From contig NC_083508.1 of assembly GCF_032362555.1 (NCBI RefSeq), positions 3,067,001-3,131,000 on the forward strand: a stretch of DNA of 64,000 bases. Direction: 5' to 3'. The stretch comes from Amyelois transitella. Lineage: Eukaryota > Arthropoda > Insecta > Lepidoptera > Pyralidae. Positions within the stretch are counted from its first letter, which is position 1, and each line of letters starts with the position of its first letter. The position numbers were made by a program, and so were the translations under genes. A model generated the notes under the pieces. That model had not been told where the DNA came from. It saw only the letters and a program-made list of their open reading frames with translations, and did not search any database. This document shows positions 58,154 through 64,000 of the stretch, in pieces.

Positions 58154-58852
58154 TTTAATAATTTTCACACATATGACGTGGCACAAGTTAAATAAAACAA
58201 GAGACAATCAAAACTTTTCGAAACACCAACAAGCTTTGTATGATATTTACACGAAATTTACGTCACTGCATGCCATGGCCGCCATATTGCTAAAAGTCGC
58301 GTTTTGGCGGCATATTTGAATATTTCATTTTCTTTTTCGATTTTTTAATAAAATAGCTGTAATAAAGGCAGAAAAGTATTTTTGTAGGGCTCCTTATAAA
58401 CAAATAAATACCCTAAGATAGTTTTTAGAACTTTGTCAAATAGCCTATTACTACTGGTGCTAAACATTCACAAATAGTACTTTTAAAGTGTTATTAATGT
58501 AGAATATATCATTCCGAATTCTATGTAGTTACTTAAATAGGGAAGAACTTGAGAAGGTTAAGAAAAGACACGGGAACAAAACAATAGTTTTATGAATTTA
58601 TGAAAAGGTCGAACAAAATGTAGCAACTATTAGAAATTTTAAGTTTAAAATAAAAACTACGTAATCGATTATCAGTTGTGTAAATTGTAGGAAAACATGT
58701 TTTGTAAACGAAACTCGTCCGATACCAACTAACGACCGATTTAGCCATTGATTTTGATTTTATACGTTTTGTTACTTGCCTAACTTTTTAGACCACAACA
58801 CGTGTGTATATGTTACTGTCCTTTCACCCTATCTATGAAAAAAACGTTTTTT

Positions 58853-59397
58853 TTTCAGATATAATATTAAAACTGGCTGTGCACAGGGGCGTGTTGGTCC
58901 CGACATTAATGTATGGGAGTGAAAGTTGGGTATGGCAAAAGAAGCATGAAAGCAGAATAAATGCAGTGGAAATGAGAGCGTTAAGGAGTATGATGGGTGT
59001 GAAATTGAGTGACAGGATAAGGAACAGCGTGATAAGGGAATGTTGTGATGTGAAAGAAGATGTAGTTACAGGAATAGAAAAGGGTATGTTAAGATGGTTC
59101 GGTCATGTGGAGAGGATGAATGAAAGCAGGTTGACTAAGAAGATATACAAGGAGAGTGTGGAGGGAAAGGTCGGAGTGGGAAGACCTAGACGAACGTATC
59201 TTGATCAAATTAAGGACGTCCTGGTAAAGGGTCAGGTCAAAAGTACCCGAAACCGCCGAGCTTGTATGAAGAGAGTTATGAATGTGGACGAAGCGAAAGA
59301 AGTATGCAGAGATCGTGGCAAGTGGAAAGAGGTAGTCTCTGCCTACCCCTCCGGGAAAGAGGCGTGATTTTATGTATGTATGTATGTATGTATGTAT
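58853..59397 (+). mobile_element. 5'-truncated LINE with 3' ATGT tail
   Basis: An open frame to 59367 carries the C-terminal part of a non-LTR reverse transcriptase protein: VPTLMYGSESWVWQKKHESR, RALRSMMGVKLSDRIRN, GMLRWFGHVERMNESRLTKK and GRPRRTYLDQIKDVL. The frame is uninterrupted. The 3' end runs 'ctacccctccgggaaagagg' to GTGATTTT then ATGT repeats. Upstream reverse transcriptase domains are absent (5' truncation). Fragments of the same 3' end occur at 26068, 40200, 41703, 51803 and 57105. The type is RTE/Proto2-like by the box order; uncertain. Confidence 0.85.
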
Positions 59398-59417
59398 AAT
59401 ATTAAAAATCCTATTAT

Positions 59418-59513: not shown

Positions 59514-60574
59514 ATTTATTATATTATTTTCTCCATGGCTACTTGAAAACTGTAAATGCTACAGAAACTTAACTTTAGGGATGCCTGGAGACACCAACAT
59601 AATTCCTATTCCTACTTTCTGAGTTATTACGAGTAAATTAGTATATTTAAGTTAGTTAGAATAATTTGTTACTCCAGGACACTTATTCACGAGTTAATAT
59701 GACATAAGTGTTATTTTCCCGTTCTCTCAATTTTTGAGACAATAGGAAGTGTAAAAGAGGCAGATAATAAGACAGCCTTGTCAACGCTACGAATTAGGGA
59801 GTGGACATTGAATTGTAAACAATATGCTTAAACCCAGTATGATTAAAAGCCCAACCGTCTGTGTCATTTATGTCTGTCACGTTACACAAACTGAAAAACT
59901 CATTTCACACAATTGGTAACGAAAAGGCGTCCATGGGGTTAACCGGGGCGTACCACACTGGTTCGAAAATCGTATATGGTGGACTTAGGGATCAAAGTGC
60001 AGCTATCACGCTGATTTTTTTTTTACATACTCCTTTTAACAATAGCTTTGACTTTTGTTAATAAGGTTTTTGCTAAAAAGTGCATTTTCATATTTAAAAA
60101 AAATACTGTTTATTTTTTTGTATGGAGAAAAAGTAATAATCATAAAAATCTTTGAAATGGTAATACTGTTAGGCAGGGCCTAGTAGGCGTTATAGTCCGC
60201 ACAATTCTCAACATTTTATACCTTGAAGTCATATTCATATGTCTGCCGCTTTGGCGTCCACAGCGCTTGGAAATTTTCCTTATTAAATATATAGGCATCA
60301 TAAACTAAATTACCGTACCCATACTACGTGACCCGTTCAGAGGCGGATGGGGAGTCTTTTAAAATACCCGTACTTGATCATACGAAGGCTGGGGGGGAGG
60401 TCAGGATTACGATGAAATTTTTGATTGAGATGAAATTTCATACTATTAATGATGAAACGATTATCTTTTTAAAGCAAGACCTTTGCGACAAGCACACAAA
60501 ATTTATACCGTGCGAGAATTTTATACATTAGATATTGACTATGTTGCCCAAGAAATATGAAGATATAGATGGTA
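59514..60574. other. Region downstream of the RAG1-like ORF, possible element end
   Basis: No gene. At 59954 CACACTGGTTCGAAAATCG resembles the CAC-type heptamer start of Transib ends, preceded by CGTAC, a possible 5-bp target site. No matching right end is in the window, so this is only a candidate. Confidence 0.3.
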
Positions 60575-60643
60575 GCCCTGAAAAGAGCTTTTGTAGAGCT
60601 CTGAAAAGAGCTGTTGTAAAGCTCTGAAAAGAGCTGTGATATT
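60575..60643. repeat. Three 23-bp tandem units
   Basis: Units begin GCYCTGAAAAGAGCT and are followed by a variable 8 bp. They lie just after the stop codon of the RAG1-like ORF. Confidence 0.85.
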
Positions 60644-60662: not shown

Positions 60663-62768
60663 TTATTCCAAAGGATTTGTCTTATCCACTGAAACTTCGT
60701 CGATCTCCATTTCTGCTTCTTCCTCTACCGCTGATTCTAATAAGTCAATAGCTTCTGAAAATAATTTTAATTTATTGAATTTTGCATACTTTGGCCTGAT
60801 GTGTGATATATATGGATCCGAAGTTATTAAAAAGTTATGAAGAATGTCTTCATTATTCTGAATCCTTCCCATTTTCCGAGTGTGTTGCTCCCTTGTATTT
60901 CTAAATTCCTTATTTCTTGCTTCGGATGCTTCTTCCGACATTATTCCAATAGGCAGACAAGAGAAATGTCGGCAAATATCAGCCCCATGTATGAGCAGCT
61001 TGTGCACACTTGCTGGCATATTGTACCATGGATAGAGGTGTACAAAAAGTTCAGCTGTCTCTCTGCAATATTCCCGGAATTTCTCGATGTTGATGGCATT
61101 CCCAGAGGATATGACCTGCAAGATCACAGCGAAATGCCTAATGAGATTCTCATCAATCTTCGTAATCTGTGCACTCTTCTGGTATTCTCTGAAAAATTTT
61201 CTTGCAGTGTTGCCATCGTTCGTAGTTCCGAAGCCCTGTTTAACAATATCTATCAAGAGTCCCATCTGCTCTTTGAATTGTTGTTGCGTGAAATCCTTCC
61301 TTGCTTTCTTGAGGTTTTTATTTTCACCTCGTGCACACCACATCTCGAAGTCCATATTGTACGATATGTGCAATAGACACTCCATGCTTCTGATCCACAT
61401 GTGAAGTGTAGAGAGTCCGTACTGGTACACCTCATCCCGAACTGGTCTTGAGAATACTTCTGGTAAGTTATTCATTTCACTGGGTTTTGCCAGACATATA
61501 TTGCAAGTCGCTGCAGATGGAGTATCGGTGATGATTGTAGCTATCTTGCCATCAATCATCGTCATGTGCAGATCATGACTGATCTCGACTTCCCCGCATC
61601 TTGACACAGTCAGGTTTCGGATTTCTTCTTTCATCGCAGCTTCTTCTTGTTTGATGAATTCGCTGGTTTCCTTTGCGAACTGAAACTTCACTGGTCTACA
61701 GTAAAACGTGGAAGAAGGTTTTGGATTTTCCCAGATCAGCACATTGTCAGACTCAAGCTTTAATGGCACAAGACTCGTCATGAATACTGATGAATCATCG
61801 AAGTCAGGTTGCCCGCTTTTCTGTCTGTAATTACTTTGTGCTGAAGATCCGTCGAATCCCCATTTGCTGGTCATTTTTAGATGTCCATCTGGGAGATTTA
61901 GAGGTTCGCCAACAACTTGCAGGATCCTCTGTACAGTCAAATTCAGTAATGACTGCAATTTCACCTTTGCTCCATCTTCAGTTACTTCAATATCAGACGT
62001 ATCCGGATAGCATTTCTTCTTAGCTTTCAACAGTTTGTAGTACGAAGGAAGCTGTGCAGAACCTTCGTAGTTTGTCAAGAAAGCCCTTAGCGTCAAATAT
62101 CTCCATTTTGACAAATCCAGTGAAGTAGCAAGGGCCAAAGCTTGATCTTCCTCGAGAGTTTCCTTCTTCTCCTTGTGAAACAAATATGTTTGAACTTCGT
62201 GTGCTCGTTCTGGGTTTTTCATAAGGTGCCCAATCACTTGGGCAAGGTCGATTTTTCCTTCCGATTTCAGGTTAGAGACGAGAGCAAAAGACAACTCATC
62301 TGCTGTATAGTCAGTTAATGTACCTGACCGTCTTTTTTTTTGCTTGTTTCCCAGGTCAGAAAATGGTTTTCTGACCGGACTTTCTGTAGAAGTGCTCATA
62401 TCCTTTGTAACAGAAGATGTGGATGGAGTGACGTAATCTGTAGGCTCTGGTAGCTGATTTTCTTCCTCTATGGTATCTTCAAAAATCTTCGCGAGATTCA
62501 GGTTATTGCACACAGGCCACTTGATTCTTTCCTCTAACCAGCCCATATGTTTATTCATAAATGTTTTCTGAGTTCTGTTTGCCGCGGTCCATCTGCGATT
62601 CAAGTTGACAGTGATGGATCTTGAAAACTTTAATATTTCTTCAGAATCTTGGTCACAAACACTGAGTGGAATACCAGCCAAAATCGCTTGATGGAGCCTT
62701 TTATAATCCTTGAGGTCGCCTTCTCGTAGAAATATGTAGAAGTCCAAGTTGGTTCCAAATCGAGTCAT
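60663..62768 (-). CDS. RAG1-core / Transib-type transposase
   Basis: A 701-aa uninterrupted frame from the ATG at 62768 (a GTG lies 9 codons upstream). Numbering from that GTG, it keeps the landmarks of the RAG1 core: Asp315 (KWGFDGSSAQ), Asp415 (MTMIDGK), zinc pair CNIC (431, 434), zinc histidines in VHKLLIH (598, 603; RAG1 has HKTLAH) and Glu625 in SEEASEARNKEFRN (RAG1 SEGNESGNKLFRR). Order and spacing fit the DDE plus ZnH2 layout of RAG1 and Transib transposases, which cut at CAC-type ends. The N terminus (1-230) is not recognised beyond a basic Ser/Thr-rich linker; no RING finger is seen. Many insects carry similar unnamed proteins. A LINE abuts its 5' side. A domesticated gene is possible but less likely without introns. 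No stop or frameshift. Confidence 0.8.
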   Translation of the reverse strand: MTRFGTNLDFYIFLREGDLKDYKRLHQAILAGIPLSVCDQDSEEILKFSRSITVNLNRRWTAANRTQKTFMNKHMGWLEERIKWPVCNNLNLAKIFEDTIEEENQLPEPTDYVTPSTSSVTKDMSTSTESPVRKPFSDLGNKQKKRRSGTLTDYTADELSFALVSNLKSEGKIDLAQVIGHLMKNPERAHEVQTYLFHKEKKETLEEDQALALATSLDLSKWRYLTLRAFLTNYEGSAQLPSYYKLLKAKKKCYPDTSDIEVTEDGAKVKLQSLLNLTVQRILQVVGEPLNLPDGHLKMTSKWGFDGSSAQSNYRQKSGQPDFDDSSVFMTSLVPLKLESDNVLIWENPKPSSTFYCRPVKFQFAKETSEFIKQEEAAMKEEIRNLTVSRCGEVEISHDLHMTMIDGKIATIITDTPSAATCNICLAKPSEMNNLPEVFSRPVRDEVYQYGLSTLHMWIRSMECLLHISYNMDFEMWCARGENKNLKKARKDFTQQQFKEQMGLLIDIVKQGFGTTNDGNTARKFFREYQKSAQITKIDENLIRHFAVILQVISSGNAINIEKFREYCRETAELFVHLYPWYNMPASVHKLLIHGADICRHFSCLPIGIMSEEASEARNKEFRNTREQHTRKMGRIQNNEDILHNFLITSDPYISHIRPKYAKFNKLKLFSEAIDLLESAVEEEAEMEIDEVSVDKTNPLE

Positions 62769-62795
62769 GGTATGTAGATGATAATAGAGCGTCAC

Positions 62796-64000
62796 TGATT
62801 TTATGGAGATGTATCTTCTTCAACAGTTCAATTGGTAGTGATTTTTCCATTCTGTCATCCTGCATTTCCGCCGTCAGGCGGAAATGTGGGGTGCTGTTCA
62901 GGGCTTGTGGCCCTCTTCAGCGACTATCATCGCTGCCTGCAGCGGCAGGCAGGTCACTGAGCGTGGCCGTGGCGGCCACTAATTTGGTCTTCCCGCGGGG
63001 TCAACAGGCGCTGCGGGTGCGGCGCCTGCAGTGGTGCTCGCTGTGATGACGGCTTCTCTGGGTGATGGCCAGTGTCTTCGGTCCGGCGGGCGAGCGTGCA
63101 GTGGCGCGATGCCCACGAGATGCGGGTGCGCCGACCTGTCCGCCCTGCCGAACATGTCACTGGCCAGACGCGAGATGAATGCGTCCAGGCCCTCCCATTT
63201 AAGGTCCCGCTGGATCGTCGCGTTCCTCACGTACCGTGGGGCCCCGACGATGTCGCGGAGACTTTGGTTTTCTTGAGCACGGAGGCGACGCCTGTAGGTC
63301 TCCGCGACATAGGCGTACCACGCCGGGGCTGCGTACGTGAGGCGGGATCTGATGTACGTTTTGTAGATCCCGAGCTTCGTCTTCAGCGGGAGGCTGGAGG
63401 AGAGCACTGGACGGAGTCTTCCTTTGGCCGTCTTCACTGCTTGCACCACTGAGTCGACGTGGGTCTTCAGGCGAAGACCACGGTCGATCTTGACCCCGAG
63501 GTACGTGACGTGTGGCTGCCACGCCACGTCCTTCCCGAAGAGCGTCAGGGGCGGCGGTGGGGCGGCGTTCCCGGAGATCAGAGCCTGCGTTTTCGCCACG
63601 TTCACCGACAGTCTCCACTTGTGGAGCCAATCTGGCAGGGCGTCTAGCGCTTTTTGGACTTTCTTGGCGGCGTGCTTCGCGCTCATGGATACCGCGAAGT
63701 ACGCCGCGTCGTCGGCGTAGAGGGCCAGCTTGGCTCCATCTGCGACCGGAATGTCGTCGGTGTACGCGGCGTAGCAGGCCGGGCTCAGGCAGCTCCCCTG
63801 AGGAACGCCAGCCCGGACGGGTTTCTCCGAAGATACGGCGTCTTCGACCGCCACCCTGATCTTCCGCTCGTTCAGGAAGGAGGCCACAATCCTGATGATT
63901 CTTCTTGGAATGGGGCTCTTCGACAGTTTGTATAGCAACCCCTCGTGCCATACTCTGTCGAAGGCCTTTTCGTTGTCTAGGAGCACAACAGCCACGGTCT
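62796..64000 (-). mobile_element. Jockey-like LINE, 3' end, runs off the window
   Basis: Reverse transcriptase ORF plus about 120-180 bp of GC-rich 3' UTR containing a perfect hairpin CATTTCCGCC-GTCA-GGCGGAAATG at 62863-62886. The exact 3' boundary with the RAG1-like element is not visible (no A-tail). High GC and CpG content contrasts with the surroundings, suggesting a young insertion. Confidence 0.8.
62979..63998 (-). CDS. Non-LTR reverse transcriptase, C-terminal part
   Basis: The frame is open to the right edge (N terminus missing), about 340 aa. Reverse transcriptase motifs: LLDNEKAFDRVWHEGLLYKL (motif A region), AGVPQGSCLSPACYAAYTDD (motif B) and ALYADDAAYFAVS with the catalytic Asp pair (motif C), then VTYLGVKIDRGLRLKTHV (thumb). 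This order and wording are those of Jockey-clade elements. After the thumb comes RLTYAAPAWYAYV and an alanine/proline-rich end. No endonuclease part is inside the window. Confidence 0.92.
   Translation of the reverse strand, partial: TVAVVLLDNEKAFDRVWHEGLLYKLSKSPIPRRIIRIVASFLNERKIRVAVEDAVSSEKPVRAGVPQGSCLSPACYAAYTDDIPVADGAKLALYADDAAYFAVSMSAKHAAKKVQKALDALPDWLHKWRLSVNVAKTQALISGNAAPPPPLTLFGKDVAWQPHVTYLGVKIDRGLRLKTHVDSVVQAVKTAKGRLRPVLSSSLPLKTKLGIYKTYIRSRLTYAAPAWYAYVAETYRRRLRAQENQSLRDIVGAPRYVRNATIQRDLKWEGLDAFISRLASDMFGRADRSAHPHLVGIAPLHARPPDRRHWPSPREAVITASTTAGAAPAAPVDPAGRPN

Follow-up and report, generated by a model that had tools for sequence, protein, structure and literature searches.

A nested Transib transposon and LINE in Amyelois transitella, and a recurrent spacing between LINE insertions and TATA motifs

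Target-specific non-LTR retrotransposons recorded up to 2015 fall mostly into early-branching, Tx1 and R1 groups and are directed to rRNA, spliced-leader and tRNA genes, transposons, microsatellites and telomeres, as given in the available portion of PMC4640811. For the Dictyostelium element TRE5-A, the accessible part of PMC5911963 states that the ORF1 protein binds TBP, Brf1 and Bdp1, and non-LTR elements of the trypanosomatid L1Tc group are described in the available text of PMC4748587 as accumulating where polycistronic transcription initiates. The target-specific LINEs that were found described choose either a repeated sequence or Pol III genes; none aimed at Pol II start sites was found described in the open-access literature, where the trypanosomatid elements came nearest, and one may be described elsewhere. 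Among DNA transposons, CAC ends and 5-bp duplications are given for Transib in the available section of PMC7204232, and autonomous Transibs number typically one, and at most a few, per genome in the accessible passages of PMC4411706.

A 64,000-nt stretch of the Amyelois transitella genome, hereafter called the window (C4:3067001-3131000; the genome comprises 33 contigs and 327 Mb), very probably holds a nested pair, in which a Transib was entered by a member of a LINE group (subfamilies A, A2 and B) that targets TATA-driven Pol II start sites. Like R1, Tx1, R2 and Utopia, among whose targets the available portion of PMC4640811 counts transposons, this LINE has a precise target; unlike those elements, which each use one repeated sequence, it enters many unlike sequences with a TATA motif about 33 nt upstream. 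It is a non-LTR element like TRE5-A, and it may share with TRE5-A the use of the transcription machinery to target genes, but TRE5-A integrates in the opposite orientation to Pol III tRNA genes, about 40-54 bp upstream of them, whereas the LINE lies at Pol II promoters, at the putative start site and in the sense orientation. The trypanosomatid elements accumulate regionally and carry their own Pr77 promoter, in contrast to the fixed distance from a TATA box seen here. The Transib differs from the autonomous members covered in the accessible passages of PMC4411706 in being present as 12 nearly identical copies.

A Transib split by a LINE

The following features were assigned in the window.

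59949..59953, no strand assigned: 5-bp target site duplication of the Transib, 3' side, CGTAC on the plus strand and GTACG on the minus strand
59954..60351, minus strand: 3' terminal inverted repeat (TIR) of the Transib, terminus CACACTG
60663..62768, minus strand: predicted Transib transposase ORF, 701 aa, from the first ATG past the putative transcription start site
62769..62846, minus strand: Transib 5' leader, from the LINE junction to the ATG
62836-62846, minus strand: downstream copy of the 11-bp target site duplication of the LINE, AAAAATCACTA
62847..64000, minus strand: LINE, 3' part of a full-length non-LTR retrotransposon, which extends beyond the window as far as C4 3135739
62979..63998, minus strand: LINE ORF2, C-terminal 339 aa (endonuclease and reverse transcriptase)

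Sequence fetched past the window showed the complete LINE to be 5,893 bp long with two long ORFs. The whole ORF2 (910 aa; L031:382-3111:-) matched Pfam PF03372, PF14529 and PF00078 over cut-off, and from this APE-like endonuclease and reverse transcriptase the LINE is identified as an APE-type non-LTR retrotransposon; from its motifs, it is tentatively placed in the Jockey clade. Beyond the LINE the Transib resumes with the rest of its 5' portion, including the 5' TIR, which is flanked by the other copy of the GTACG duplication (C4 3136768-3136772). The original prediction had called the transposase uninterrupted; the ORF is intact, but the transposon is split, and the LINE sits between its promoter and its ORF. 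A LINE within a transposon has a precedent in Tx1L, which lies inside Tx1D. An ERK intron had also been named as the setting. A first exon that we take to be ERK-like is followed by GTAAGT at about 54,838 on the plus strand, and the Transib lies downstream of it in antisense; no further ERK exon was found within the window by motif scan. At 58804-59410 the window contains a truncated tail that looks reverse-transcriptase-like, with TATG tandem repeats after it, probably from a different retroelement.

The full Transib element, taken from copy L002, is 3,908 bp long, and its TIRs are perfect over 398 bp between both ends. A genome search with the transposase gave at least 10 full-frame copies and 2 split-frame copies, and a search for CAC-type ends with the TIR as query gave at least 24 ends, all with CACACTG termini and all pairing into 12 elements, these copy and end counts being lower bounds. 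Exact 5-bp duplications flank 11 of the 12 (TGGCG, CGTCG, CCACG, GTACG, CGCCG, CGTCG, CGCCG, CGACG, CGCAG, CGACG and TGTCG), with L010 offset by one base. Within the gene, L034 has a 1-bp insertion and L035 a 160-bp deletion. Since any two copies differ on average by only 1.6 substitutions across the roughly 2.9 kb from the leader to the 3' end (66 pairs), the family is judged from these sequences to be very young and to have moved very recently, in agreement with the prediction of a mobile or recently mobile element. No non-autonomous derivatives were recovered with an 80-nt TIR query at near-identity, a search that diverged ones would escape. No RAG2-like ORF lies between the transposase stop and the 3' end, where ORFs reach at most 67 aa (the 1.07-kb 5' arm was outside the ORF listing). 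Three 23-bp tandem copies occupy 60574-60642 within the 3' untranslated region.

LINE insertion sites and their TATA register

A genome search with LINE ORF2 returned 50 scored matches from 5,505 first-look candidates. Flanks were fetched for 38 of the 50, which with the four Transib copies made 42 LINE copies, and eight matches were left out. Both junctions were resolved for 25 of the 42, and the duplications at these measure 8-12 bp. The fetched stretch lacked the LINE 5' end in 14 others, and in three the script detected no shared duplication (C32:4307939, C27:161353 and C27:3540872, the last with a duplication that is visible by eye and beyond the script's offset limit); all of these were dropped. 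The 25 resolved insertions represent 19 distinct sites, and at 14 of them a TATA(A/T)A or TATTTAA motif begins 18-25 nt ahead of the duplication, as against a mean of 0.22 and a maximum of 3 in 2000 shuffles. No 8-nt bin outside -28..-13 holds a TATA motif at the 19 sites. At C17:2530363 the motif is on the reverse strand only, and the other reverse-strand matches coincide with a sense match. An extra G or GA is present at the LINE junction in 5 of the 25 and might, speculatively, be cap-derived; the Transib rows were entered minus their extras (AAG in L010 and 65 nt in L008).

Searching the genome for LINE 5' ends gave 31 complete A/A2 and 16 complete B ends, with seven partial ends set aside, and 46 of the 47 complete ends were read for TATA. 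A motif lies 30-38 nt upstream of the 5' end on the sense strand at 29 of the 46 junctions: 16/24 in the first set, 4/4 in the Transib set (L008 being counted by the H3 TATA in its transduced piece) and 9/18 in the later set. This -38..-30 window was chosen after the first sites had been seen, and the 18-site set, read after the idea had formed, is a partial check. With targets collapsed, imperfectly in that H4 was counted as two groups, the figure is 19 of 35, compared with a Markov-shuffle mean of 0.53 and a maximum of 4 in 5000. The interval is without TATA at 17 of the 46 junctions (16 of the 35 targets); among the 35 target representatives, three have the motif at -42 or -43, that is, 4-5 nt further out, and one at -77. 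The remaining targets may be TATA-less starts or off-target insertions. Several promoters were taken repeatedly by different subfamilies: that of the Transib (A, A2 and B), that shared by C23:2454934 and two C32 copies (A and B), that of C17:5810657 and C5:12497855 (A2 and B) and that of C32:480236 and C32:156275 (A2 and B). Some 60 nt downstream of one repeated target there is a TGGTGACCCCG motif, which resembles the primer site of an LTR element.

The same junctions bear on whether the LINE endonuclease reads a short initiator-like sequence, often ending in A, so that the association with TATA would be secondary. Seventeen of the 25 resolved duplications do end in A, and several sites have TCA at the junction. 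The sequences between TATA and insertion are, however, otherwise unalike by eye, and what stays constant is a TATA motif at fixed spacing, which makes a short recognition sequence an unlikely explanation, if one to be taken seriously.

The Transib leader itself was used more than once. The empty site in an uninterrupted Transib copy reads ATATAAAAGAGGCGCGTACGATAAAAAAATCACTACC. No LINE breaks it in eight of the 12 copies, and the other four have each received one at this position, with three subfamilies represented.

L004 (the window copy): subfamily A LINE, duplication AAAAATCACTA, 11 bp
L010: subfamily A LINE, duplication AAAAATCA, 8 bp
L034/L037: subfamily A2 LINE, duplication AAAAATCACTA, 11 bp
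L008: subfamily B LINE, duplication AAAAATCACTA, 11 bp

These four LINEs were judged to be separate insertions because their subfamilies, 5' ends and duplications differ. Had a single LINE-carrying Transib instead given rise to all four through transposition or gene conversion, the identity of the site in all four copies would be expected, and the LINEs of L004 and L010 are of the same subfamily and 98.5% identical. Against such spread, which we regard as very improbable, the Transibs around these LINEs are near-identical whereas the LINEs are of subfamilies A, A2 and B, with differing 5' ends and duplications of 11, 8, 11 and 11 bp, and non-Transib targets have the same TATA register. Compared with the LINE of L008, those of L004 and L010 show about 56-70% protein identity over the longest ORF2 stretches.

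Histone genes form another set of targets. In LINE copies on C27, histone gene starts lie just downstream of the LINE, and from their first residues we take these to be H3 (MARTKQTARKS, L071), H4 (MTGRGKGG, L072 and L100) and H2A (MSGRGKGGKVKG, L113). The LINE of L008 has 65 nt preceding its normal 5' end, 64 of them identical, TATA included, to the H3 promoter that precedes the LINE of L091 (the reported 68-nt match between the two contains four letters of the LINE start). Because 64 nt of H3 promoter were carried along, the parent of this LINE is placed in an H3 promoter, with its RNA beginning upstream of the TATA box, so a simple picture of RNA initiating at +1 fails for this copy. At C27:161353 (L077, L097) the LINE has an H4 promoter as its 5' flank and an H3 leader as its 3' flank, and this copy is read as the product of recombination or of a deletion between histone genes. 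Contig C27 itself opens with telomere repeats of the TTAGG type. In general, transcription of histone genes and of young transposons is plausibly high in the germ line, and hot spots could on that ground arise from the accessible chromatin of active promoters without any specific targeting; the precision of a few nucleotides and the single orientation relative to TATA leave this explanation little credence.

The transposase and its relatives

The transposase frame extends over 60663..62795 on the minus strand and gives 710 aa if translation begins at a GTG, or 701 aa if it begins at the ATG at 62768. The prediction that this is a RAG1/Transib-type ORF was borne out by structure-database and profile searches. 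The closest solved relative of the 701-aa protein was HzTransib (533 bits, E 1e-158, residues 207-685), with far weaker matches to RAG1L (7.5e-4) and RAG1 (0.0017 and weaker) in the same search. We take this entry, PDB 6pqn, to be the Helicoverpa zea Transib; its title in the PDB table is 'putative DNA-mediated transposase'. With a profile built from three Transib families of the genome, the RAG1L match rose to 1.4e-11, and the profile-level alignment covered the DDE block and the C-terminal block of the transposase. The Pfam RAG1 model scored 18.2 bits, under its 25-bit cut-off. A chance ORF was excluded because of the score to HzTransib and the ten full-frame genome copies, eight of them at top score. 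A single-sequence structure model of the 701-aa protein had a mean pLDDT of 34.9 and was set aside. No relatives of the transposase or of LINE ORF2 were found in viral contigs.

The catalytic Asp, Asp and Glu had been predicted to occur in order as Asp315, Asp415 and Glu625 in the 710-aa numbering. The corresponding D306, D406 and E616 of the 701-aa protein are invariant in the alignment of the three families and fall in blocks common to the transposase and HzTransib; by sequence comparison, we take them to be equivalents of the RAG1 triad. The motifs VHKLLIH and SEEASEARNK, also named in the prediction, are both present and identical in HzTransib. The candidate residues of the proposed C2/H2 zinc site (C422, C425, H589 and H594) were all located, the last three being invariant in the three-family alignment and C422 being replaced by Tyr in L013. 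From these comparisons, 60663-62768 on the minus strand is identified as encoding a Transib transposase of the RAG1-like DDE type, and the element is a new member of a known family. By homology, the enzyme would be expected to cut at the CACACTG ends and to make the 5-bp duplications. In its aligned core, its catalytic blocks, its CAC ends and its 5-bp duplications the element is like HzTransib or Transib generally; it differs in its 398-bp TIRs and in about 200 extra N-terminal residues relative to the solved HzTransib chain, which is possibly a construct. Compared with HzTransib, RAG1 and RAG1L (ProtoRAG) are far weaker matches, and no match to the RAG1 nonamer-binding domain was found for the N-terminal region by profile search.

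The original prediction had further proposed that the N-terminal third could define a subgroup. This was not upheld, because two other Transib families in the genome (L013, 660 aa, and L016, 704 aa), which are 42% and 37% identical to the transposase, likewise have long N-terminal regions, in which R59, A63, R65, F70, W77 and L78 are invariant. The possibility of a new domain was also considered and rejected. In the N-terminal profile search only the end of the region aligned, to the start of the HzTransib chain, the rest being three chance-level matches, and Pfam gave no match to the N-terminal third of the window protein. The region is read, on its sequence, as a normal, fast-evolving part of longer Transibs. 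That the ORF is a domesticated host gene of Transib origin, as its intact frame would allow, has virtually no probability, given that 12 near-identical copies are dispersed through the genome and bear TIRs and target duplications.

A second young Transib family (L015-L019, on C2, C5, C15, C19 and C27) has five copies with zero mismatch in the matched stretch. Both ends are visible in L017, L018 and L019, with 5-bp duplications CGCTG, CGACG and CGACC; the 5' end is CACAGTG, identical to the RSS consensus heptamer, and the 3' end, read inward, is CACGGTG. Contig C32 (12.4 of 327 Mb) holds 34 of the 64 transposase matches, mostly fragments, and may be a W or similar degenerate chromosome. The young family around the window's element would be useful as a possible active RAG1 relative with a long N-terminus and very long TIRs.

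A proposed route to the promoter

Within this one genome, the LINE insertions mostly lie about 33 nt downstream of TATA, are sense-oriented and recur at the same nucleotide across subfamilies, and the spacing suggests that the insertion positions are transcription start sites. In the proposed sequence of events, an autonomous cut-and-paste Transib of about 3.9 kb, with a TATA box, a leader and a single transposase gene, would have inserted at GTACG, and a LINE would then have entered the Transib transcription start, about 34 bp past the TATA box, with its orientation matching that of the Transib. The 8-12 bp duplications would end about at +1, with the first nucleotide of the LINE following the start site. 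The region from about -9 to +1 melts when transcription begins. Since the duplications correspond approximately to this region, the LINE endonuclease may nick the melted DNA. Alternatively, a LINE ORF protein could contact TBP, by analogy with TRE5-A ORF1 at Pol III genes. No TBP- or TFIIB-binding domain was recognisable in LINE ORF1 by Pfam and PDB comparison, which gave a sub-threshold PRE_C2HC match, a weaker Jiv90 match and PDB matches at E 0.0098-0.062.

On either route, we infer that targeting proceeds via the promoter machinery (TBP and the pre-initiation complex, or nicking of the melted start) and not via one fixed sequence. A new copy beginning at a host transcription start would probably be transcribed from the host promoter and, as a likely benefit, from its first base. 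A counter-argument is that the LINE may have its own internal promoter. With moderate confidence, we favour a LINE lineage whose landing pad is the Pol II pre-initiation complex or open promoter and which inserts in the sense orientation at +1 of TATA promoters, among them those of histone genes and other transposons, with its copies driven by the captured host promoter. If this is true, such targeting of Pol II start sites would tie retrotransposition directly to the assembly of promoters, the insertions would show with nearly single-nucleotide accuracy where transcription starts in a genome that lacks annotation, and how the LINE protein finds TBP-bound DNA would become a testable question.
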